A program made the position numbers and the translations under genes. A DNA stretch of 21,968 nucleotides, taken from positions 1 through 21,968 of IMG/VR virus record IMGVR_UViG_3300046777_001515; one strand, written 5' to 3'. Below are positions 2,365 to 21,968 of the stretch, piece by piece. How positions within the stretch are numbered: position 1 is the first letter of the stretch; each line of letters starts with the position of its first letter. Under the pieces are notes generated by a model, which had not been told where the DNA came from, did no database searches, and saw only the letters and a list, made by a program, of their open reading frames with translations. The DNA is from a virus.

Positions 2365-3381
2365 ATGAGTAATCCAGAAGCTACCGCTGAAGCTATTGAA
2401 TCAGTGTCCAACCTGTCATTTGAAGAGCTTGTAGCTCAGAGAACGGCAAGACATAATCCAGAACCCGAATCTAAGGAGCAACCCGAGGAAGCGGAAACCG
2501 AAAGCGAAGAGGAAGAGATTCCTGCCGAGCCAGAGGAAGCCGAAGTCGAGGAAGAAGCCGAGGAGGAAGAAGAGGAGCCAGAAAGTGAAATTGATCTACT
2601 GTCGCTAACTACGGAGCAGATTCAATCTTTAGCCAAAAAGGGTAAGAGCCGATTGCTTCAACGCATTGGCGAGCTAACCGCTCAGAAGAAAGCCCTGGAG
2701 GAGAAGTTGCAATCCCAACCGCCAGTTAAGGAAGTCCCTCAAGAACAGAATCCGTTTCGTGAAATCTCATCCATCGATGACCTTAAAGCGAAATACCAAG
2801 AACTTGAGCAAACCCTTGAGGCTACAGATGCGCTACTTGAGGAATACGAAGATTATCGTGGTGAAGACATAATCCTAGTAGGAGACAAGGAGTTCACTAA
2901 GCAGCAGATCCGTAAAGCTAACCGCAACTCTAGGGACGCATTGACTAAATACCTTCCTGCCCAGCAAGCGCATCTCCAGCAGATCGCCCAGATGGAGCAA
3001 CTGAAGGGACAATACATCGCTGCGGCTCAAGAAGAAGTTCCAGACATCAATGACGAAACCACTGCTGTCGGGAAACAATTCAAGGATTTAATGTCTGACC
3101 CGCTTATCGAAAAGCTACGCAAACAAGTTCCTGAAATTGGCTACCAAATCGAATACATCCTGGCTCATGCGTCAAACTCCATCCATGGAGGAACGAGAAT
3201 TAAGAAGCAATCTGCGGTGGGGAATAAACTGAAAGTCAGTCCATCCTCTTCCCCATTTGGAGCAGGTGCAGCTAAATCCTCTGTTTCCGCCAAGGCTAAA
3301 GGTTCAGATGCGTATTCTCGCTTTGAAAAGAGTGGGAGTCCAGAAGAATGGGTTGCTGCTAGAATCGCCAGATACAAATAA
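2365..3381 (+). CDS. Acidic coiled-coil protein, probable capsid scaffold
   Basis: A 338-residue protein directly upstream of the major capsid gene. Residues about 30-80 are an extremely acidic, Glu-rich, probably disordered region. Residues about 85-170 form coiled coil (SRLLQRIGELTAQKKALEEK and following). The middle is rich in Gln and Lys, and the C-terminal third has a basic Ser/Gly-rich linker and a charged end (PEEWVAARIARYK). High charge, coiled coil and position before the capsid gene match internal scaffolding proteins, which guide procapsid assembly and then leave. The assignment rests on composition and context, not on a conserved motif. No protease motif is visible. Confidence 0.75.
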   Translation: MSNPEATAEAIESVSNLSFEELVAQRTARHNPEPESKEQPEEAETESEEEEIPAEPEEAEVEEEAEEEEEEPESEIDLLSLTTEQIQSLAKKGKSRLLQRIGELTAQKKALEEKLQSQPPVKEVPQEQNPFREISSIDDLKAKYQELEQTLEATDALLEEYEDYRGEDIILVGDKEFTKQQIRKANRNSRDALTKYLPAQQAHLQQIAQMEQLKGQYIAAAQEEVPDINDETTAVGKQFKDLMSDPLIEKLRKQVPEIGYQIEYILAHASNSIHGGTRIKKQSAVGNKLKVSPSSSPFGAGAAKSSVSAKAKGSDAYSRFEKSGSPEEWVAARIARYK

Positions 3382-3400
3382 CTTTTAACCGACTAAAACA

Positions 3401-4396
3401 ATGCCTATCTCAAATACCTACCAACCGTCAGCCCCAGCCGCTAAAACTGGCACGGGTTCCGCCGTTTCCAACCGCGAGGATCTCAGCAATGAACTTGCTA
3501 TCCTTGCTCCAGAAGAAACTCCCATCCTGTCCCTTTGCAGCAAAGGCAAAGCAAGTGCCACCTACACTGAGTGGACTGTTGACTCCCTTGCTTCTCCTGC
3601 TACCACTGGTATCAGCGAAGGTTCGGATGTGACTTCGTTCTCGGACAAGTTCGCAGATCGCGCTCGCCTTGGTAACTACATCCAATTGATGCGCCGTGAC
3701 TACATTGTGTCGAACCTGCAACAAGCTGTGTCGAGCGTTGGTCCTGCTAACGTGGCACAAGCTGAAGCTAAGTCCATGCGCGAAATCAAACGCGACATCG
3801 AAGCAACCATCGCCTCCGACAACGAGATGACGGTTGAAAACGGTGCTGGCACTCCTTACGGAATGCGTGGTCTTGGCAAGTGGATTCAGTCCTCCGCCCA
3901 AGCAACGAACCCAGTTCCTGCTGCATACCGCACTCCCTCTGGTTCGATCATCTCGTCCACCATCAGCGAAAGCTCCTTCAACTCTTTGATTGGTTCGATC
4001 TTCGCTCGTAACGGTGAGATGAACAGCTTGACGCTTGTTGCTAACGTGGCACTTCGCCAGCTTATCAGCAACTTCACCCGCGCCACTCCATCGTCTGCTG
4101 GTGTTACCTACCACGTTAACCAAGAAGCCACGAGCAAGCAGATCACCTTGTCGGTGAACCTGTATGACTCCGACTTCGGTCTGGTTAAGATCGTGAACGG
4201 CAACCCAAGCTGTATGCCAACTGGTTCGACCAACGTAGGCTACGTCCTCAATCCTAAGTATCTGGGCTTCAACACCCTGATCCCAATGGGTGCTACTCGC
4301 CTTGAGAACCAAGGTGGTGGTGAGCGTGGATTCGTCGATGTTGCTGGCACCTTGTGCGTCAAGCATCCCCAAGCCCACGGCAAAATCGCTTACTAA
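3401..4396 (+). CDS. Major capsid protein, SU10/DUF5309-like (HK97 fold)
   Basis: A 331-residue protein. The N-terminal part NREDLSNELAILAPEETPIL followed by SLCSKGKA, and then TYTEWTVDSLA, matches the DUF5309/SU10 major-capsid family that I recognise (start '..R.DLS.ELa.l.P..TPilsL..kGka...'). Further family-like features are the DRARLGNYIQLMRRDYIVS stretch and an REIKRDIEATIASDNE helix, the probable spine helix. The protein assembles the icosahedral head shell. It follows the scaffold-like gene by 19 nt and has an A-rich leader rather than an SD site. Length is typical for the family. I could not run a profile search, so subfamily placement is from memory. Confidence 0.88.
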   Translation: MPISNTYQPSAPAAKTGTGSAVSNREDLSNELAILAPEETPILSLCSKGKASATYTEWTVDSLASPATTGISEGSDVTSFSDKFADRARLGNYIQLMRRDYIVSNLQQAVSSVGPANVAQAEAKSMREIKRDIEATIASDNEMTVENGAGTPYGMRGLGKWIQSSAQATNPVPAAYRTPSGSIISSTISESSFNSLIGSIFARNGEMNSLTLVANVALRQLISNFTRATPSSAGVTYHVNQEATSKQITLSVNLYDSDFGLVKIVNGNPSCMPTGSTNVGYVLNPKYLGFNTLIPMGATRLENQGGGERGFVDVAGTLCVKHPQAHGKIAY

Positions 4397-4424
4397 TCAT
4401 AACTAACCAGAAAGAAAATACATT

Positions 4425-4847
4425 ATGCCTCAATTAGCTAATCAAGAATCGCGTGGGTTTACTCACTACTTCCGCATGAATGCCACAGACCTTGTTGCTG
4501 CTGGCACATCTGCGAAAACCATTGGGCAAATCCCTCGTGGTGGCATCGTCACCAATGCAGCAGTAACTGTCTTGACACCTATCGCTGGTGCCTCTGATAT
4601 TACGCTGACCCTTGGCGTGACAGGAACCGCTGCTGGTTTTATTGCATCGACCGACCTCGATGGTCTTACGGCTACCGCTTACAATAGCGGAACGCTGCTT
4701 GACACTGAGCCTGGTCATGTGAATAACACCACATCTGCTGTTAACATTATCGCTACCCTTGGCGGAACTGTTGCAAGCATCACCGCTGGAGAAATCATCT
4801 TCGGCTTGACGATCCTTGATCCATTTGGTCTTGGTTCCAACGCTTAA
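4425..4847 (+). CDS. Probable head decoration protein
   Basis: A 140-residue protein just downstream of the capsid gene. It is rich in Thr, Ala, Gly, Ile and Val, has almost no Lys or Cys, and alternates short hydrophobic strands (GGIVTNAAVTVLTPI, ASDITLTLGVTGTAAGF), suggesting an all-beta fold. Small beta-rich proteins at this position often decorate the capsid. No named family is recognised, so the role is inferred from composition and position. The strong terminator that follows (4857-4889) makes it the last gene of a probable high-expression head unit. Confidence 0.65.
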   Translation: MPQLANQESRGFTHYFRMNATDLVAAGTSAKTIGQIPRGGIVTNAAVTVLTPIAGASDITLTLGVTGTAAGFIASTDLDGLTATAYNSGTLLDTEPGHVNNTTSAVNIIATLGGTVASITAGEIIFGLTILDPFGLGSNA

Positions 4848-4856
4848 TCCCTAACT

Positions 4857-4889
4857 GGGGAGGGAGGGTAAAATCTCCCTCTCCTTTTT
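4857..4889 (+). terminator. Intrinsic terminator after the capsid/decoration genes
   Basis: GGGGAGGGAG at 4857-4866 pairs with CTCCCTCTCC at 4875-4884 (10 pairs with one wobble) across an 8-nt loop. Five Ts follow at 4885-4889. The next gene's ATG is at 4893, only 4 nt later, so readthrough transcripts carry the hairpin just before the start codon. Confidence 0.8.
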
Positions 4890-4892
4890 CTT

Positions 4893-5171
4893 ATGTTCGC
4901 AGAAGAAGAAATTAACGCAGCACTTATTCGTGAGCTATGCTCTGGTCGCAAGTTCGTCGAGAGCTTGGAGAAACGCAGAGAGATTGAAGCAGCGGCAGAA
5001 GCAAGGAAGATGCGCGAAGTGAAGTCCATCGCAGGTAAGCCTGTCGGTGCTATCCCTCAACGCGAGTATCTACTCCTTGCAAACAAATACGGAGCAGAAT
5101 GCTGGGATGACCGAGGATTCGTCCGTGACTTTTTTAAATCACAATCACACCTAAAAGCAGGTAACATTTAA
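4893..5171 (+). CDS. Small head-module protein of unknown function
   Basis: A 92-residue, charged, mostly helical protein with an Ala/Glu/Arg-rich stretch (SLEKRREIEAAAEARKMREV, about residues 30-49). A more ordered C-terminus follows (REYLLLANKYGAECWDDRGF). I do not recognise a family. It lies between the decoration-like gene and the connector and overlaps the connector start by one base (TAATG), implying translational coupling. A head-completion or assembly role is possible from position only. No SD is visible, because the upstream sequence is the terminator hairpin. Confidence 0.75.
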   Translation: MFAEEEINAALIRELCSGRKFVESLEKRREIEAAAEARKMREVKSIAGKPVGAIPQREYLLLANKYGAECWDDRGFVRDFFKSQSHLKAGNI

Positions 5172-5779
5172 TGCAAACGAAGACCTACGCTGAATTGCTT
5201 TCTCTGATTCAATCACTGTGCGGGGTCGTCTTCGCAACGCTGGAGCTTGGGCGCATCAAGGCACTCATCAATCGTCGTGCGCTGAGAGCATATCGCTCCA
5301 CGAACTACTGGACTCGCTACCTCAAGATCGGGGAAGAGAGAGCAGTGACTGTCGTGCCTTACACCGAAGCTGGCAAAGATCCGATTGATACGTTTCTGCG
5401 TGTTCATCGGCAAGCCCCCTGGATCACCGCTGCTGTGCAGGAATACGACATCATGGTGACCGCTGATGGTGCTACACTTGTCGCTGGCAACAGTAATCCC
5501 ACGGAAGCCTTCGTCACTTACAAGAAGCAGTTCTCCGACACTTACGGTGATGGGCAAGGTGAAACTACAGCAATCCCTGCTGAGTGGTTTCAATACATGG
5601 CGCATGGAACGTATGCTGATTACCTTCGTGCCGAGGGGCAGCAAGAGAAAGCAGTCGTGGCAGACCAAGAAGCCGACCTGCTGCTTCAAGAGGAAATGAT
5701 TCGCATTGATGAACAACATACTTTACAGATGGTGGCAAATAGGATATTTACCAACGCGAACATGCAAATGCGATACTGA
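5171..5779 (+). CDS. Head-tail connector, T7 gp11-like adaptor (probable)
   Basis: A 202-residue protein. The N-terminus has a helical segment with LGRIKALINRRALRAYRSTNYW, the middle is beta-rich, and the C-terminal third has IPAEWFQYMAHGTYADYLRAEGQQEKA. That last pattern ('IP.e.f.Y.ahg.yAD.LR.eGQ..KA') resembles podovirus gp11-type tail tubular or adaptor proteins as I know them. Such proteins form the ring below the portal that joins head and tail. Length matches gp11-type proteins (about 190-200 residues). It overlaps both neighbours by one base. The call is moderately sure. The expected partner, a large gp12-like nozzle protein, is not next to it. Confidence 0.65.
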   Translation: MQTKTYAELLSLIQSLCGVVFATLELGRIKALINRRALRAYRSTNYWTRYLKIGEERAVTVVPYTEAGKDPIDTFLRVHRQAPWITAAVQEYDIMVTADGATLVAGNSNPTEAFVTYKKQFSDTYGDGQGETTAIPAEWFQYMAHGTYADYLRAEGQQEKAVVADQEADLLLQEEMIRIDEQHTLQMVANRIFTNANMQMRY

Positions 5780-7038
5780 TGAATTACTCACTTGGAAATA
5801 TGCTTAGTAATGGCGGGGCGTTGAATCCTGATGGGTTAGCTCTCGACCTTCAGTTCGCTGCTGATAAGACGCTGACCGCTCGTAAAGGTCCGACACCTGC
5901 GTTCACGCGCGCATCCACAGCTACATTCGTGGGTAGTAATGGGCTTATCCAAAGTGCGGCAATCAACACTCCCCGCTTCGATCATAATTCAGTCACGCTT
6001 GCGAGTCGTGGGTTGCTGATTGAGGAGGCGAGGACGAATTTAGTATTGCAGAGTGAAAACCATCCATCAGCGTCATGGAGCAAAACAGGTGCAACTGTCG
6101 CATCAGCTAGCAACACGGCACCAAATGGCTCCTCTACAAGCAACTTGGTGACTGAGGATTCATCAACTGGAGTGCATCGCTTATTCCAATCGACCGCATA
6201 TGTTTCAGGAACATCATATTCCATATCTGTATTTCTGAAATATGCTGGAAGGCAATTTGTTGCAATCACCCATCCAGCTGTTGCTTCTAATGGCACTGCC
6301 ATATTTGACATTCAAAACGGAACAATTACTTTAACTCAATCTGGCATCACTTCTTCAATTACCGCCTATGCTAATGGGTGGTATCGTTGCGTTATTAATG
6401 GAGTTTCTGCCACAACAGGAGGTTCTTCTCACATCATTCAAGGAAGCACAACTGGAAATGTTTTAACAGGCTCATACACTGGATTAAATGGTGCTGCGTT
6501 TTACATTTATGGTTCACAAGTAGAAGCTGGCTCCTTCCCCACCTCCTACATCCCCACCACCACAGCATCCGTGGTGCGCAGCGCGGATGTTTGCAGCATT
6601 ACTGGGAGTGATTTTAGTGGGTTTTACAACCAGAGTGAGGGGGCGATGTTTGCGAATGCGTTCACTCCAGCCAGCGGTGACCGAACAGTTCTTGCGGTAG
6701 ACGATAATACTGCCAATGAAATGATACGACTCAGGACAGAGACTGCTAATCCATTTTTCAAAGTCACGGATGGTGGTAGTGAGGTCGTAGCGATAGACGC
6801 TGGAACAGTAACCGCAAATACTGCATTCAAACTAATTGGCGCATACAAGGTGAATGATTTTGCATCTAGTATCAATGGTGGCAGTGCAGTCACCGATACC
6901 ACTGGAACAATCCCAACGGTAGATCGTATGCGTATTGGTGCAGGGCAAGGTGGAAACACTATGTGCGGTTGCGTCTCAGCGATTCGTTATTTTAAGAAAC
7001 GCTTACCTGACACAAAACTCCAATCTCTCACGGCATGA
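5779..7038 (+). CDS. Tail fibre or receptor-binding protein with lectin-like domains
   Basis: A 419-residue protein starting at an overlapping TGATG. Residues about 40-90 carry the signature FTRASTATFVGSNGLIQ ... PRFDHNS ... GLLIEEARTNL, known from phage fibre and head-spike proteins and usually followed by carbohydrate-binding or concanavalin-like domains. Residues about 90-270 form a beta-rich domain ending in YIYGSQVEAGSFPTSYIPTT, the usual end of this kind of jelly-roll. Residues about 285-415 look like a second laminin-G-like domain. It probably binds host surface glycans. Next to a small fibre-associated gene and the lysis cassette, receptor binding is the best reading. No depolymerase motif is visible. 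Confidence 0.8.
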   Translation: MNYSLGNMLSNGGALNPDGLALDLQFAADKTLTARKGPTPAFTRASTATFVGSNGLIQSAAINTPRFDHNSVTLASRGLLIEEARTNLVLQSENHPSASWSKTGATVASASNTAPNGSSTSNLVTEDSSTGVHRLFQSTAYVSGTSYSISVFLKYAGRQFVAITHPAVASNGTAIFDIQNGTITLTQSGITSSITAYANGWYRCVINGVSATTGGSSHIIQGSTTGNVLTGSYTGLNGAAFYIYGSQVEAGSFPTSYIPTTTASVVRSADVCSITGSDFSGFYNQSEGAMFANAFTPASGDRTVLAVDDNTANEMIRLRTETANPFFKVTDGGSEVVAIDAGTVTANTAFKLIGAYKVNDFASSINGGSAVTDTTGTIPTVDRMRIGAGQGGNTMCGCVSAIRYFKKRLPDTKLQSLTA

Positions 7039-7355
7039 TTGACTATCTCTTGAAATTTCCATCCAAAGCAATCGCTGAACAATTCGGCGTTGCTAATGGA
7101 TTTTCTGCGCCCGACGAAGACGGAGTCATCAAGTCGAGTCTCGCCAGTCATGAACACGCTTTGTGCGTCATTGGCGAGCATAACGGTGCAGACTGGTGGG
7201 TTCTTTTCCGTGACCTTGTAGGCATCCCTGTTCCTGATGGAGCGGATCAATTTATTTACTGGGCTTCCACTTTCACCGTCGATGATGAAGACGGCAATCC
7301 GATCCCTGTTCCAAGACCAATCTCCGATGATGTCCCCAATGTTTGGTGGGCATAA
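7035..7355 (+). CDS. Small fibre-associated protein of unknown function
   Basis: A 106-residue acidic protein rich in Trp near the end (NGADWWVLFRDL, FIYWAST, VPNVWWA). The start ATG overlaps the fibre stop (ATGA at 7035-7038). I do not recognise a named family. Small proteins in this spot, between fibre and lysis genes, are often fibre chaperones or tail accessories; that is inference from context. The C-terminal part is Pro/Asp-rich and looks exposed. Confidence 0.75.
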   Translation: MIDYLLKFPSKAIAEQFGVANGFSAPDEDGVIKSSLASHEHALCVIGEHNGADWWVLFRDLVGIPVPDGADQFIYWASTFTVDDEDGNPIPVPRPISDDVPNVWWA

Positions 7356-7372
7356 TCCAACGCAATACCACT

Positions 7373-7525
7373 ATGAAAACTACCGTATTAGGCATCCTGA
7401 CAATCGTTGCAACTGTTTCCAATGTTGCTATCCAAGTCATCTCGGGAGAATCTCCCGACCTCGCCGCAGCGTTTGCTGCTGTGGTCGCTGGAATTGGTCT
7501 AGTCAAAGCTGCTGACGACAAATGA
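7373..7525 (+). CDS. Small membrane protein of the lysis cassette (holin-like)
   Basis: A 50-residue protein starting at the ATG at 7373; a longer frame from a TTG at 7343 is unlikely because it would overlap the previous gene. Two hydrophobic segments are visible (VLGILTIVATVSNVAIQVI, about residues 4-22, and AAAFAAVVAGIGLV, about residues 31-44), separated by SGESPDL. It ends in KAADDK. Similar short proteins with the 'T..GIL......G.pD......A..aGiGL.kA.D' layout lie next to endolysins in many phages. Its stop overlaps the next start (ATGA). A holin role is likely but inferred. Confidence 0.7.
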   Translation: MKTTVLGILTIVATVSNVAIQVISGESPDLAAAFAAVVAGIGLVKAADDK

Positions 7526-7686
7526 ACAAGGAAATGCTCCCCAGCGCGATTGGAACGATTGCTCCAATCCTCGGCGTGATTACCTCCTTCCAAGAGCAGG
7601 TCGAATACTGGTTGCGTGTTAGCAGCTTAGTAGTCGGCGTGATCGTTGGGTTGCTCAGTATGTGGCAACTCATCAAGAAGCTATGA
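7522..7686 (+). CDS. Second small membrane protein of the lysis cassette (holin-like)
   Basis: A 54-residue protein, MNKEMLPSAIGTIAPILGVI and onward, ending SMWQLIKKL. A first apolar stretch covers about residues 7-22. A clear membrane segment covers about residues 34-49 (SSLVVGVIVGLLSMWQ), followed by a basic tail. Both ends overlap neighbours by 4 bases (ATGA at 7522-7525 and 7683-7686), so it is tightly coupled between the first membrane protein and the endolysin. This arrangement suits a holin or antiholin pair. It is short and easily missed, but its overlaps and composition support it. Confidence 0.7.
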   Translation: MNKEMLPSAIGTIAPILGVITSFQEQVEYWLRVSSLVVGVIVGLLSMWQLIKKL

Positions 7687-8180
7687 GTAAATTCGTTCAA
7701 GAGATTATCCGTATCGCCAAGGCAGAGGTCGGGGTGAAGGAGGTCGGCAATACAAATTGCGGCGAGAGAGTAGACCAATACAAGGCGGCTACATGGCTTA
7801 ACCCAAAGAAGGGATGGGCGTGGTGTGCTGCTTTCGTCTGCTGGGTAGTGCGCGAGGCGATGGCATCCGCTGGGGTGGAGCAAACCAAGACGTTCAAACG
7901 CCCAAGGACTGCTGGTGCATGGGATTTCGAGAACTGGTCAATAGCGCAGGACAAAAGCACATGGACGCTGCGTGATCCTGAGCGCGACATTCTCCCTGGA
8001 GACATCGTGATCTTCACGTTCTCCCATATCGGCTTCGCTATTTCCGCTCCCGACAACGATGGGTTCATCCGAACAGTGGAGGGCAATACTGACACTGCTG
8101 GGTCAAGGGAAGGCGGAGGAGTTTACATCAAGTCTCGCCACATCTCCAAGATTCGCTCCCGCATTCGGTTCACAATCTGA
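7683..8180 (+). CDS. CHAP-domain endolysin
   Basis: A 165-residue protein when started at the ATG at 7683, which overlaps the previous stop; a start at 7662 would run through that gene. It has a CHAP-type cysteine peptidase/amidase layout. Catalytic Cys48 is in GWAWCAAFVCW, His115 in FTFSHIGFA, and a polar third residue in VEGNTD (Glu133 or Asn135). LPGDIVIF precedes the His, as in other CHAP enzymes. These enzymes cleave peptidoglycan peptide or amide bonds to release virions. No signal peptide is seen, so export would need the neighbouring membrane proteins. The protein is a single catalytic domain with no obvious wall-binding domain. Confidence 0.88.
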   Translation: MSKFVQEIIRIAKAEVGVKEVGNTNCGERVDQYKAATWLNPKKGWAWCAAFVCWVVREAMASAGVEQTKTFKRPRTAGAWDFENWSIAQDKSTWTLRDPERDILPGDIVIFTFSHIGFAISAPDNDGFIRTVEGNTDTAGSREGGGVYIKSRHISKIRSRIRFTI

Positions 8181-8229
8181 TTTTTCACACGAAAGTGGGC
8201 AATGCTCACGATAACCGACATTACACGCA

Positions 8230-9030
8230 ATGAAACCAATAAAAAGCAAATCCAAGATTATTGTCCTATTGTCAGACCTCCACATCGGCTCCGTGGTTGG
8301 TCTATGGCTTCCAGACTTCGTGTCCAACGAAGGAATCCCCATCGGTCAGAATGCCTTCCAGAAGTGGTTGTGGGCTTGCTGGCAAGACTGCCATGAGTGG
8401 ATTGCCAAGATCGTGGGAGATGATCCCTATGAGCTTGTCATCAATGGCGACTTGGTCGAGGGCATCCACCACCGCACGACTCAAGTGATGAGTGCCGACC
8501 TAGGCGACCAGTCTGCTGCTGTGATCCAGATTCTTGAGCCTGTGACCAGCAAGGCGGCTGGAGTGCATATCATCAAGGGGACTGAGTGCCACACGCGAAA
8601 CGATGAGATCCGTCTGGGCAAAGTGCTAGGCGCATCGAGGAATCCTGAGAATGGACAGAATGCATGGGACAGCCTCGACATCGAGATCAACGGAACACTT
8701 GTGAACTTTGCTCACCATATCTCCGCGACATCCCGACCGTATCTGGAAGCTGGAGCGCATAGCATTGCCCTGGGTGTCATTACCCATACCCGCGCCCGAG
8801 TAGGCAAGCGTGTGCCTTCTGTCATCTGTCGTGCGCATCGCCATCGCCATGGAATCTGGACGGATGGCAACCAAGCATCGCTAATAACTGGCGCATGGCA
8901 GGGGCTTACTCGCCATGGCTACAAGGTAGTTCCCGATGCTATCTCCGAACCTTCATGTATCATTCTTGATGCGAGGACGACCGACAAAGGCGACCTCCCT
9001 CTGTTTCATCAACGCAAATACGTACCATAA
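8230..9030 (+). CDS. Calcineurin-like metallophosphoesterase
   Basis: A 266-residue protein with the metallophosphoesterase motifs in order: SDLHIG (Asp16, His18), NGDLVEG (Asn72, Asp74), KGTECH where the usual GNHE block would lie (116-121), FAHHIS (His162/163) and RAHRHRHG (202-208). These ligands normally hold two divalent metals for hydrolysis of phosphomono- or phosphodiesters; the substrate here is unknown. The replacement of GNH(E/D) by GTECH is unusual and is discussed as a finding. The gene follows the endolysin by 49 nt and overlaps the next start by one base (TAATG). It may act on DNA ends or nucleotides, but this cannot be told from sequence. Confidence 0.85.
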   Translation: MKPIKSKSKIIVLLSDLHIGSVVGLWLPDFVSNEGIPIGQNAFQKWLWACWQDCHEWIAKIVGDDPYELVINGDLVEGIHHRTTQVMSADLGDQSAAVIQILEPVTSKAAGVHIIKGTECHTRNDEIRLGKVLGASRNPENGQNAWDSLDIEINGTLVNFAHHISATSRPYLEAGAHSIALGVITHTRARVGKRVPSVICRAHRHRHGIWTDGNQASLITGAWQGLTRHGYKVVPDAISEPSCIILDARTTDKGDLPLFHQRKYVP

Positions 9031-9263
9031 TGGCAAAAAGCATACCCAAAGTAACAGGCATGGACTGGATCGTGGAGAAGTTCTCCTATGAACCAATGAC
9101 TCCAGAGGAGTTCACCGCAGAGATGGTAGCAAAGCAATCTGGTGCTAACATCAATACGGTGAGAAGTAAGCTACATCGGATGGAGGTGAATGGCGAGATC
9201 ACCAGTCGGAAGCTGCTCATAGACGGCAGACATTTTGTCGTCTACAAGCGAGCCGAGTCATAA
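9030..9263 (+). CDS. Winged-helix DNA-binding protein
   Basis: A 77-residue protein. TPEEFTAEMVAKQSGANINT followed by VRSKLHRMEVNGEITSRKL looks like a helix-turn-helix with a following wing (residues about 24-66); LLIDGRHFVVYKR would be the wing strands. It overlaps the phosphoesterase stop by one base, so it is coupled to it. It is the last rightward gene and overlaps the convergent leftward gene by 6 bp at 9258-9263. A transcriptional regulator or a DNA-targeting partner of the phosphoesterase are both possible. Family assignment is structural guesswork. Confidence 0.75.
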   Translation: MAKSIPKVTGMDWIVEKFSYEPMTPEEFTAEMVAKQSGANINTVRSKLHRMEVNGEITSRKLLIDGRHFVVYKRAES

Positions 9264-10052: not shown

Positions 10053-10816
10053 TACTTTTCGCTTTCGGAAAATGATTGTATTTCAGTCATGCAAAAAAGA
10101 CCGCACGATATTTTAGGATCTGCTCCTGTTGGATCTCCTTCGGGGAGTTCGTAAAGCGGGACATCAATCCTCTCACCGTTGCGGGTTATCCGATTGATGC
10201 TGTATCCGATCTCTTTCTCTAGTCTTGCAACTCGCTCAAAATGAACAGGGAAGTGCTTCCTTATTCTTTTCCAGTAGTCAACAGCATCTCTCGCTTTTAC
10301 GCATCCAATGCAGTTGTTGTTGCGGAAACCTAGTCGATACATCACTGGGATCTCAATACCTACTCTCTCAAGCATTCCCAAGCAATCTTCTTTTGTTAAG
10401 TGCTTGTCGATCAAGGGACATTCGATTGTGCGTTCATTATTGTCACGCTTCCACCTTTCCAATCTGTGACGTTCATCTGATGTATAGCCGAAGACCTCAA
10501 TATCCCCAATGCTCCAAATCCCATTTGCTGGTTCTTTTTTCATTGCTCCAGTGCATGGTGCGCCATTCGCCGATGAAAGAAACCGCGCCTTCTCGCATAC
10601 CTCATGGGCATCTTTGTATTTTGTGCTTTTCAGAATGTTGACTTTCCGCCCAAACCATTTCTCGCAATCAGTGATAAATCTCGGATTGTCTTCATGCTCG
10701 ATTCCTGTGTCAGTGTAGTAAATCTCTACGTCACCGTATTTCTCAATGGATAGTTTTGTTGCTACCGCTGACGCAGCACCGCATGAAAACCAAGCAATTA
10801 CTTTATTTTTCTTCAT
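10052..10816 (-). CDS. PAPS-reductase family protein (adenine-nucleotide alpha-hydrolase fold)
   Basis: A 254-residue protein. The start is the ATG at 10816, preceded by a perfect AGGAGG 9 nt away. FSCGAASAVATKL (about residues 10-22) occupies the place of the SGGxDS nucleotide-binding loop of the PAPS reductase/ATP pyrophosphatase fold, with an altered signature. YTDTGIEHEDNPRFITDCEKW, VFGYTSDER and NNNCIGCVKARDAVDYWKRIR follow, all typical of a phage branch of the family as I know it. Several Cys residues (88, 145, 169, 172) could bind an Fe-S cluster or zinc. Related folds activate sulphate, modify tRNA or phosphorothioate DNA (DndC); which applies here is unknown. It overlaps both neighbours by one base and follows the helicase loader. 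Confidence 0.85.
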   Translation of the reverse strand: MKKNKVIAWFSCGAASAVATKLSIEKYGDVEIYYTDTGIEHEDNPRFITDCEKWFGRKVNILKSTKYKDAHEVCEKARFLSSANGAPCTGAMKKEPANGIWSIGDIEVFGYTSDERHRLERWKRDNNERTIECPLIDKHLTKEDCLGMLERVGIEIPVMYRLGFRNNNCIGCVKARDAVDYWKRIRKHFPVHFERVARLEKEIGYSINRITRNGERIDVPLYELPEGDPTGADPKISCGLFCMTEIQSFSESEK

Positions 10817-11397
10817 TATTGTTTCCTCCTGAATGATTCCCATGTGAATGCCAGTTTTGCTCCGTTCTCCTCGATCCGATCAATCACGGCAGGGGATAGC
10901 GTGGATGCTAGTTTCTCCCATGAGTAGTTCGAGATGAGGATCGTCGGCATATCTGCGGCGTATCGCGCATCAATGATGGCAGTGAGTTGTCTGTCTTCGT
11001 ATGGCGTTTCACCACGCTCCTGGACTTCATCAATGACCAGCAATGCTGCCTCGCAGTAGTCCGACACCACTTCCTTCTCTGACTTCTTTGCCCCAGAGAT
11101 GTAGGTGGACTTGATCGTCGAGAACAGATTGACTGCTGTTGTGTAGACCATCGGACGCTTCTTGTATGTCGTCGTCCATCCCTGTTCGCCTGTGCTGATG
11201 TTTGGACGCTTGGACTTATGCGCCCGAGCCACCTCCCATGCCATGCGTGTCTTGCCTGTGCCATATCCTCCGTAGAGAATCGTGATCCCACCTTCATCCG
11301 TGGTGGCGAGTGCCTTGGCATAGTTCGCCAGCCACCCTGCCCCACCTGCTGGTGGAGCGTCATCATATCGTTTCGGAAATCCTCTGAGTATGTTCAT
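10816..11397 (-). CDS. DnaC/IstB-like AAA+ ATPase, probable helicase loader
   Basis: A 193-residue AAA+ protein. Walker A is GGYGTGKT (43-50), Walker B is LLVIDE (119-124), and sensor-1-like ISN is at 155-157. A DR pair in the AVIDRIEE helix fits an arginine finger. Size and layout match phage DnaC-type helicase loaders, which place the replicative helicase on single-stranded DNA. No helicase gene is visible in this window, so it probably recruits the host DnaB or one encoded elsewhere in the phage. It overlaps the upstream ribbon-helix-helix gene by 4 bp, and its last codons supply the SD of the next gene. Confidence 0.85.
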   Translation of the reverse strand: MNILRGFPKRYDDAPPAGGAGWLANYAKALATTDEGGITILYGGYGTGKTRMAWEVARAHKSKRPNISTGEQGWTTTYKKRPMVYTTAVNLFSTIKSTYISGAKKSEKEVVSDYCEAALLVIDEVQERGETPYEDRQLTAIIDARYAADMPTILISNYSWEKLASTLSPAVIDRIEENGAKLAFTWESFRRKQ

Positions 11398-11678
11398 TGC
11401 TCGGGAAGGTTAAGGATTTGTGATACAGTGTAGCCAACACCTTTCTTGAGTAGGTGTGAGTAGTCTACTGGCATTGTAGGTTCGATCTTCTCAGACTCCT
11501 GGGTGCGTATGAGCAACTCCGCTGCCTGACTGATCGAGCATCTCCTGCGATTGGCGAGCCTCCTGAGACGCTGATATGTCTCTTGCTCTAGCCGCAGTGC
11601 CACAGTTGCTTTCTGCTCCCATGGCTTCTTCCGTGGTCGTCCACTGACCATGCTGAATCCTTTGTCGCTGACTCTCAT
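11394..11678 (-). CDS. Ribbon-helix-helix-like small DNA-binding protein
   Basis: A 94-residue protein from the ATG at 11678, which overlaps the upstream stop (ATGA); a start at 11792 would lie inside the upstream gene. A basic N-terminal arm (SGRPRKKPWEQK) is followed by ATVALRLEQETYQRLRRLAN and RRRCSISQAAELLIR, a strand-helix-helix pattern like MetJ/Arc regulators. The C-terminus (YSHLLKKGVGYTVSQILNL) is separate. It sits between an HTH protein and the helicase loader. It may autoregulate the operon or help recognise the replication origin. DNA binding is likely; the target is unknown. Confidence 0.75.
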   Translation of the reverse strand: MRVSDKGFSMVSGRPRKKPWEQKATVALRLEQETYQRLRRLANRRRCSISQAAELLIRTQESEKIEPTMPVDYSHLLKKGVGYTVSQILNLPEQ

Positions 11679-13258: not shown

Positions 13259-13639
13259 TTAGATTGCTTCGATATGTGGAATGTCGCCTCCGAAGTGCAT
13301 CGTCCTTACCCATTCGCCATTGTAGCTCTTGTAGTAGATGATCCGATTGTTGAAGAAGCGATATTCTTCGTCTTCAAGATAATCGAATTCACCACGATGC
13401 ACCCAGCGAGTCTTACCCTCTGGCAGCGGTGGTGGTTCGGGGAGATCACCCCATGGCAGTTCCAGTTGTGTGCGGTCTTGCACTTCCAGCTTGGTTATCT
13501 CGGTGATTTCCACTTCCTGATAATAAGGAACCTTACGATCCCTAAGATCACACTCGATCATCATTCCGTAGAACTCGTCTCCGTTTATGTCCTTCAGTCT
13601 TCCTGCGCAAATGATGCGCCCTGTTATGTTTGTATTCAT
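13259..13639 (-). CDS. Hypothetical protein, beta-rich, acidic
   Basis: A 126-residue protein from the ATG at 13639 (MNTNITGRIICAGRLKDING), with an A/C-rich leader (AACACAACACAAGC). A start at 13675 would overlap the RuvC-like gene. Acidic and aromatic-rich, it contains several predicted strands, a proline cluster (PEPPPLPEGK, about residues 66-78) and a Tyr/Phe/Arg-rich segment (YRFFNNRIIYYKSYNGEWV). I recognise no family. It sits between the resolvase and a membrane protein. Confidence 0.75.
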   Translation of the reverse strand: MNTNITGRIICAGRLKDINGDEFYGMMIECDLRDRKVPYYQEVEITEITKLEVQDRTQLELPWGDLPEPPPLPEGKTRWVHRGEFDYLEDEEYRFFNNRIIYYKSYNGEWVRTMHFGGDIPHIEAI

Positions 13640-13652
13640 GCTTGTGTTGTGT

Positions 13653-14078
13653 TTACTTTGTTTGTGTTTGCCCATACTTAGCTATGAGCAAAGAATCTGC
13701 TGTCGCGTGAGTCACTTTGATGCTCGGGAAAAGCTCTTGTGCCTTGCGCTTGGTGATATTTTTATCACCTTTCGTCATACATCCAAGTTCTTTCTGCCAT
13801 ACTTGTGGACGAATTCTAGTAAAAGGTATCCCTGCTGCTGTCAACGCCATCTCTAGATTGCCATATCCGCGCCCGAAGGTGAAGGCGGAGACGACTCCCA
13901 TCTGAGGACTGGAGGAGATTTGCTCTAGGTACGCATGGCATTCACCGTTGCTGGCAATGTCCCGCATTAGCTCCCAGAGGTCTTGGAGGGTGTCTGGCAT
14001 CTTCTCGACGCATGGCTTGCCGTCCATGATCCATGCAATGCCTCCGTTAACCCCTGGATCTATGCCTATCGTTGTCAT
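13653..14078 (-). CDS. RuvC-like Holliday-junction resolvase
   Basis: A 141-residue protein from the ATG at 14078, which overlaps the upstream stop (ATGA). The RNase-H-like motifs are in order: IGIDPGVNGGIA (Asp7), AYLEQ (Glu52), a FTFGRGYGNLEMALTAAGIP helix, PQVWQKELG, then HATADSLLIAKYG (Asp128), which fits the last catalytic acidic block. RuvC-type enzymes cut four-way junctions. In phages they resolve recombination intermediates or debranch DNA before packaging. It belongs to the same operon as the ERF annealase, exonuclease and SSB-like protein, giving a complete recombination set. It is shorter than bacterial RuvC (about 170 residues), as is common in phages. Confidence 0.88.
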   Translation of the reverse strand: MTTIGIDPGVNGGIAWIMDGKPCVEKMPDTLQDLWELMRDIASNGECHAYLEQISSSPQMGVVSAFTFGRGYGNLEMALTAAGIPFTRIRPQVWQKELGCMTKGDKNITKRKAQELFPSIKVTHATADSLLIAKYGQTQTK

Positions 14079-17391: not shown

Positions 17392-17709
17392 TTAGTGGTT
17401 TTCTGGTGATTGAGCAAGGATAATTTCTGAGTATTTTTGCAGGATCTTTCTGACCCGCTCCTTCGTTGCTTCGCAGTATTGCAGACGCTCATGGATTGCT
17501 CTCCGTGCGTAGTATGCTGCGGTGTGGTGCGTTCTCCCAACGATCTCGCAGGAATGTTGCAGACTGTGGGAGTCGCTCCAGATTGCCATCACGATCTGCC
17601 GTGCGAGAGACTCGGCGTATCGTTTGCGGCGACCAGTGATTGCCTCGGGAGTGACTCCCATGACAATGGCTGCGGCTGTGATTAGTGCTTTTTCGTCGTC
17701 GACTAACAT
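17392..17709 (-). CDS. DnaA domain-IV-like DNA-binding protein
   Basis: A 105-residue protein without an AAA+ domain. Residues about 10-80 follow the DnaA C-terminal domain: IVMGVTPEAITGRRKRYAES, then LARQIVMAIWSDSHSLQH, then CEIVGRTHHTAAYYARRAI. This corresponds to '..f.v....l.g..R.....ARqiamyl......s...Ig..fg.rdHtTv..a...i' in DnaA. In DnaA this domain reads the DnaA box, with the basic loop (GRRKR) and the His-Thr motif touching DNA. Here it would be a free domain, able to bind the phage or host origin. The start follows GAGGAGG, and its frame overlaps the upstream gene by 7 bp. Confidence 0.8.
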   Translation of the reverse strand: MLVDDEKALITAAAIVMGVTPEAITGRRKRYAESLARQIVMAIWSDSHSLQHSCEIVGRTHHTAAYYARRAIHERLQYCEATKERVRKILQKYSEIILAQSPENH

Positions 17710-20465: not shown

Positions 20466-20825
20466 TCACGCCGTGAATGCGTTGTGAACTAGGCGCGCGG
20501 CTTGACGCAATGCGCGGGTTTGCACATCGAGCCAGCTTTCGTGGGGGTTTGGTTGACTGTCACCGCCTTTGCATCGTTTCAACTCTGATGGACTGCAGAG
20601 TCTTTCCGCAATGTCTGCATCATAAATAAGCGAGCATCCACCGTATGAGTAAGCGCGCCAATCTGTGGCACCGTTGAGCAATGCGGCGGGTGAATAATCA
20701 CCATCAAGTGATTCGATTAGCTCGACAGCGTAGGCTTTAACGCCCCGCGCCCCTGCGGAGCGTTCGGGAGTCCAGTTGATAAATTCGAGGGCAGCTTGTT
20801 TTGCTTTGTGTTGTTGTGTTGTCAT
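20466..20825 (-). CDS. Conserved-type early protein (YGGCSLIYDADIAERLCSP motif)
   Basis: A 119-residue protein. The C-terminal half has YSYGGCSLIYDADIAERLCS, PSELKRCKGGD and PHESWLDVQTRALRQAARLV. I recall this pattern from hypothetical proteins of phages and plasmids, especially from gut and environmental metagenomes, but know no function. The N-terminal half is helical (AALEFINWTPERSAGARGVK). The leader and first codons form a low-complexity ACAACAC stretch shared with the gene at 20857-21084. Confidence 0.75.
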   Translation of the reverse strand: MTTQQHKAKQAALEFINWTPERSAGARGVKAYAVELIESLDGDYSPAALLNGATDWRAYSYGGCSLIYDADIAERLCSPSELKRCKGGDSQPNPHESWLDVQTRALRQAARLVHNAFTA

Positions 20826-21305: not shown

Positions 21306-21334
21306 AGTATCAAATCATCGCACTTTGTCGACAA
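21306..21334 (-). promoter_or_regulatory. Proximal early promoter with overlapping palindrome
   Basis: On the minus strand TTGTCG (21334-21329) and GATACT (21311-21306) are separated by 17 bp, with a predicted start near 21298. The -35 box lies inside the perfect 12-bp palindrome TTTGTCGACAAA (21324-21335), a good candidate operator. The first early gene starts at 21266. Confidence 0.5.
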
Positions 21335-21467
21335 AATATTTGAATTATTTTTTCACAAGTGCCGTTTTTCTTTATTTTACAAGGCACAGCGGGCGGAAAT
21401 TTCTTGTGTCATACACGCCAGGAAAGCGATTTTTTGGCGAGGAAAGCAAAGCACAAGCCATGCAAGG

Positions 21468-21559
21468 AATCATGCTGCGCAATCACGCAAGGGAATCATG
21501 CAAGGAAATCATGCTGTGTAATCACGTTATGCAAATCACGCCATGGAATCTATTCCCTC
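21468..21559. repeat. Tandem array of 13-bp iteron-like repeats
   Basis: Six units begin AATCAYG at 21468, 21481, 21494, 21507, 21520 and 21534; a seventh, degenerate unit starting AATC is at 21547. Spacing is 13 bp except once 14. The first eight bases read AATCATGC, AATCACGC, AATCATGC, AATCATGC, AATCACGT and AATCACGC; the last five vary. A larger imperfect repeat (21460-21487 against 21498-21526) lies on top. No CRISPR-like spacers are present. Confidence 0.85.
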
Positions 21560-21643
21560 TCTCCAAAAAATCACCGCAACAATCGCCTATCTTCCGATGG
21601 TCACTGCGGCTTAGTCTCGACCGCTCCCGCTGTTGTCTTTTCA

Positions 21644-21727: not shown

Positions 21728-21753
21728 AAAACGACCGCTTAAAACGACCGTTT
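21728..21753. repeat. Two tandem 13-bp AAAACGACCG units
   Basis: AAAACGACCG occurs at 21728-21737 and 21741-21750, exactly 13 bp apart, the same period as the AATCAYGC array. The second copy continues into AAACG-AC-CGTTT (21742-21753), an inverted repeat with a 2-bp centre. A related palindrome CAAACGTTTG is at 21850-21859. They are candidate protein-binding sites. Confidence 0.5.
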
Positions 21754-21929
21754 GAAATGCCGGCGACTCCAGGCGGCTGCCATCGCCGGACCACCACCAG
21801 ACCGGACACGACAGCACCAGCACCGGACTATTCAATCGGATGTTTCAATCAAACGTTTGTTTCATGCAATGCGACACCAAACGATGACCGGCACCGGACC
21901 GGACAGTGACCGCTGGCACCGGCAAGCCT

Positions 21930-21959: not shown

Positions 21960-21968
21960 GGCGGGGGC

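Follow-up and report, generated by a model that had tools for sequence, protein, structure and literature searches.

The virus record IMGVR_UViG_3300046777_001515, whose 21,968 bases (positions 1 to 21,968) are here called the window, carries a row of 13-bp repeats at the point where its early and late operons diverge. The question is whether this row (21468-21559) forms the initiator-binding part of a replication origin, controls early transcription, or has some other function or none. Late genes run rightward (2365-9263) and early genes leftward (from about 21270 down to 9258), so that transcription converges near 9260. The window is probably a fragment of a larger genome. Its nearest named phage is Phage C75C1 (OQ984151), the two major head proteins being 54% identical; the annotated genome of this phage also shows the divergent early/late plan and has the tract GACCCCCTCCCCCCC at the junction, but no CRTGATT row there. 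Bacterial genomes were searched with the major head protein for a prophage relative or host and gave no match, and no paper on comparable regions was found in the literature.

Sequence of the array

On the plus strand the array consists of six AATCAYG words starting at 21468, 21481, 21494, 21507, 21520 and 21534, followed by a degenerate AATC at 21547. Read on the minus strand, the units are asymmetric direct repeats of the form CRTGATT-N6, and all of them face the same direction as early transcription. The spacings are 13, 13, 13, 13 and 14 bp between the six units and 13 bp to the degenerate one; the first-pass annotation had listed the same units and distances, which proved exact letter by letter. 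TRF reports a period of 13 with 4.4 copies and 75% matches. Within the gene-poor stretch of 668 bp, a single 5-mer recurs at 10-16 bp spacing in a chain of up to six members, compared with a maximum of three in 300 dinucleotide shuffles. Six of the ten AATCAYG words of the window fall within the 73 bp of the array, and the other four on that strand are about the number expected by chance.

The differences between the units are not evenly spread. Over the six units, 16 of the 19 variant cells lie in the 6-base spacer and three in the 7-base core (p ~0.006 against an even spread). Since variation is concentrated in the spacer, the core appears constrained, which favours a recognised core over a fresh duplication. 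As the cores are 13-14 bp apart, successive sites turn round the helix and are not stacked on one face.

The control region and its shared plan

Comparison with about 27 relatives places the array in the divergent late/early intergenic region, within the putative untranslated leader of a promoter termed P2. P2 (21672-21644, minus strand) is a predicted sigma-70-like promoter, TTGACG-17-TACGAT, with TTGACA-N-TAKAAT equivalents in relatives. The second promoter-like site, P1 (21334-21306, minus strand), reads TTGTCG-17-GATACT and has a conserved TTGTSGACAA over its -35. Both are predicted from consensus matches. The array thus lies between two leftward promoter-like sites, as described earlier, and the accompanying description of the region as gene-free is correct for the early strand. 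It spans approximately +78 to +169 of the predicted P2 transcript, with 134 bp separating it from the P1 -35 downstream. AT content is 55% in the array and 49% directly beside it. The AT-rich stretch (21313-21384, 71% AT) that was said to adjoin the array does exist, but it is 84-155 bp away and covers the P1 -35 and a conserved element, the CCTTG element CCTTGTARAATAARGGAAAATG (21363-21384, minus strand; CCTTGTAAAATAAAGAAAAACG in the window).

From the late to the early side, the plan shared with relatives consists of the late gene, the tract GACCCCCTCCCCCCC, distal repeats, P2, a leader motif rich in G and poor in C, a tract of variable repeats, in many cases the CCTTGTARAATAARGGAAAATG element, P1, and the first early gene. 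In the window, the conserved leader motif TTGTTGRTGATWWTTTTTRGAGNG..GAATAGRT (21548-21582, minus strand) stands directly before the array. The CCTTG element also precedes internal early promoters in relatives. Nearly all relatives retain the tract GACCCCCTCCCCCCC in their divergent region, and it is found in the same orientation in the distant Phage C75C1 within 13300-13760; the right end of the window (21960-21968) is perhaps cut inside it. In most relatives, RTGAATAGRTT in the P2 leader could begin a leader peptide (with ATG or GTG, followed by AAT AGR); the reading frames that follow differ greatly in length, and in the window GGG replaces the start codon.

The first short ORF after P1 (21117-21266, minus strand) encodes a basic product of 49 aa that belongs to no family and is possibly a lineage-specific regulator. 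The early protein of 20857-21084 matches Pfam Phage_TreK, a terminal-repeat-encoded protein of staphylococcal phages (E 1e-12).

Variation of the array slot among relatives

Scans with the proteins of 20466-20825 and 10816-11397 yielded 91 loci. About 27 distinct loci among them have a first late gene of 84 aa that bounds the divergent region on its left. Many of these relatives are fragments, and the direct comparison of the array region is with one close relative, L002. This phage has the only recognisable version of the array, with GCATSATTCC units spaced 13 bp apart at the corresponding position, followed by YATGCTTTCCGC at 11-12 bp. Scans with a P2 fragment and with a double unit, the latter bringing up 13 loci, gave no further close relative of the region among the loci inspected in detail. 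An exact-motif search of an early subset of the loci found AATCAYG clusters in the window only. In a clade of four phages (L003, G003, L119, and L106), the slot contains a single TTGATTGCC/CATTGCC pair spaced at 13 bp. In the remaining relatives the slot is filled with CT-, TTCC-, TTATATCC- or CATATATAT-type (CATATAT-type) repeats. Relatives with such unrelated, usually C/T-rich, repeats still keep the flanking genes and both promoters.

More distant phages with the CCTTG element carry rows of 11-bp repeats directly upstream of it. Since these rows stand upstream of the element, including at internal early promoters, they appear to go with promoters and not with one unique origin. Such rows were seen in L095/L117, L096, L100, L101, L105, L110, L115, L122, and L126; the repeat types are TAGGGTTTGAC (about 12 copies), CRGACGTATGG, and CAGATTTCCCG, and they also occur inside the early region. 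Among phages with a homologue of the 20466-20825 protein, L020, L021, and L025 have palindromic repeat arrays of TGTATAAAAACTATACA, L034 and L035 have palindromic arrays of TGTCACTCTAGGGTTACA, and L024 has CCCGTGCTTGG about 12 times.

Origin or operator

The window encodes proteins that could serve an origin. A stand-alone DnaA domain-IV-like protein (17392-17709, minus strand) matches the PDB profile of DnaA domain IV with an E value of 3e-8 and the Pfam profile with 8e-5, the latter below the gathering score. A DnaC-like helicase loader (10816-11397, minus strand) is also encoded; both proteins had been proposed from the letters of the window and are supported by the analysis. Adjoining the loader gene is that of a weakly RHH/Arc-like protein (11394-11678, minus strand), which, like the DnaA-like protein, is a candidate DNA binder.

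As an origin, the array would consist of iterons bound by the DnaA-domain-IV-like or RHH-like protein, which together with the loader would open the AT-rich stretch and load DnaB, perhaps with help from the P2 transcript. The repeats are indeed direct, asymmetric, and constantly spaced, they are sited where the early and late operons diverge, both a DnaA-IV-like protein and a DnaC-like loader are encoded in the window, and an AT-rich stretch is in the vicinity. However, the candidate initiators are conserved and the array is not. Relatives keep the DnaA-like and RHH-like proteins and the loader, some of them also the 20857-21084 gene, without an AATCAYG cluster, and only L002 has related units; such a result had been named beforehand as one that would refute an origin here. 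Phages that differ in their tracts show hardly any change in the DNA-contacting portions of either candidate protein, and covariation of the array with either protein, looked for among relatives, was not seen. Cumulative GC skew lends no support to an origin at the array: it is weak, and its minima in complete or near-complete relatives lie elsewhere. Since close relatives lack the array, a local switch is likelier than a replication origin.

A lambda-type origin, with O-protein iterons and an AT-rich tract, likewise has short direct repeats near an AT-rich stretch, an early promoter, and a helicase-loader gene (PMC7466680). In lambda, the iterons are part of the initiator gene and hardly differ between related phages, whereas the array is intergenic and not conserved, and the AT-rich stretch of the window is not adjacent to it.

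A second 13-bp repeat also weakens the case for the array as an origin. The distal repeat CGCTTGAAWCRYY, whose sequence is conserved among relatives, is located upstream of P2, between a C-tract and P2, in most of them, and was seen in G008 (four in a row), G001, G003, L003, and G019; the last of these keeps it although its loader is only 58% identical. The window has five weaker copies, two on the plus strand (CGCTTAAAACGAC and CGTTTGAAATGCC, 21736-21761) and three distal-type units on the minus strand (TGCATGAAACAAA, TGATTGAAACATC, and CGATTGAATAGTC, 21826-21868) at spacings of 17 and 13. The array as a copy of the distal repeat was tried and rejected, since the PWM match failed (p ~0.06), and the two were therefore handled as different repeats. 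The distal repeat is the better iteron candidate. Overall, an origin role of the array is possible but appears less likely than an operator role, and we consider it doubtful.

We tentatively favour the array as a lineage-specific tandem operator-like row controlling early transcription, the most probable of the readings considered but still short of an even chance. The putative asymmetric sites, with the core CRTGATT every 13-14 bp, would be occupied by a DNA-binding protein of the phage (or the host), and the occupied row would block or slow the P2 transcript that crosses the array and/or modulate P1 downstream. That a protein binds the row, whichever protein it may be, and that binding has a regulatory effect are inferred from sequence. 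This reading is favoured because the array is absent in relatives that keep the candidate initiators, because the skew is weak with its minimum elsewhere, and because repeat rows are tied to promoters. It is further supported by an invariant core with a variable spacer, unlike plain slippage, by same-direction units flanked by promoter-like sites with elements that relatives keep, by the 13-bp units of L002 in the same place together with the clade pair TTGATTGCC/CATTGCC, and by conserved replication proteins that do not change with the array. Against it, the units are direct and not dyad repeats, the 13-bp spacing rotates the sites about the helix, and a family search recognised no DNA-binding domain in the early gene products near the array. 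In addition, most relatives have simple low-complexity repeats in the slot, which may thus accept any sequence. The alternative to an origin offered earlier, a multi-site operator that the transcript from the distal promoter would cross, is a better but unproven fit to the data.

The known sites that the putative operator row would most resemble in action are those of Cluster A mycobacteriophages such as L5 and TipsytheTRex. Their operators/stoperators are asymmetric 13-bp sites that follow the direction of transcription and occur at promoters and in small gaps between genes; a block of both initiation and elongation has been proposed for them (PMC9283540). The sites of the array are likewise oriented with transcription and lie after a promoter. 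In Cluster A, however, the sites are scattered through the genome, whereas those of the window form one row; AATCAYG elsewhere, including other intergenic gaps, is near chance level, and relatives show no excess. No repressor or integrase gene was seen, and no sequence kinship has been shown. Because there is a single row, no excess of scattered sites, and no known repressor, membership in this class of sites is not claimed.

Other explanations

The array may also have no function and be a weakly constrained piece of leader that was duplicated in tandem, which we judge unlikely, to the same degree as an origin. Changing simple repeats do occupy the slot in relatives, and the conserved distal repeat is not matched by the array unit. 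However, the concentration of variation in the spacer and the related units that L002 retains at 13 bp speak against a neutral tract.

Slightly less probable again is a compound control locus, in which the conserved CGCTTGAAWCRYY repeats would be the origin, bound by the stand-alone DnaA domain IV, and the fast-changing array would set lineage-specific control of early transcription or replication.

At the RNA level, the array could be the window's version of a C-rich, YC-dense leader tract that acts as a Rho-utilisation-like attenuator of the P2 transcript. In each of the 15 leaders compared, that of the window included, the RNA switches sharply from G-rich to C/T-rich at the slot: the skew is +0.66 in the bin at +90 from the P2 -35 (15/15) and -0.59 in the bin at +150 (15/15), which is 77% pyrimidine. 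The switch region in these P2 leaders extends from +90 to +210 from the P2 -35. In most relatives the tract ranks near the 100th percentile of the early region for YC density, as a Rho-utilisation site should, but in the window C minus G (52nd percentile) and YC density (82nd percentile) are unremarkable. No conserved fold (mean z ~0) and no Rfam family match was found. A Rho-utilisation site would have C over G, dense YC, and unstructured RNA, which the window does not show; its RNA has a folding energy of -22 kcal/mol per 90 nt. An attenuator is therefore improbable.

Least probable by far is a partition array, a centromere of the ParR/parC or TubR/tubC kind. In those systems, RHH or winged-helix proteins bind rows of short direct repeats next to a promoter and also act as repressors (PMC5016525). 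The window does have direct repeats of 11-13 bp next to a promoter, as well as a protein with weak RHH similarity, but the RHH-like gene adjoins the helicase loader far from the array, the candidate proteins being encoded away from it, and no motor protein gene of the ParM or TubZ kind was seen among the annotated genes of the window, which is a fragment.

Implications

If the array is an operator, this uncharacterised phage group would keep the plan of its control region while exchanging the repeat units from one close relative to another, in the manner of immunity systems. Further leads from the comparison are the distal CGCTTGAAWCRYY repeats, as the better place to look for the origin, and a phage protein that looks like a DnaA domain IV standing alone.
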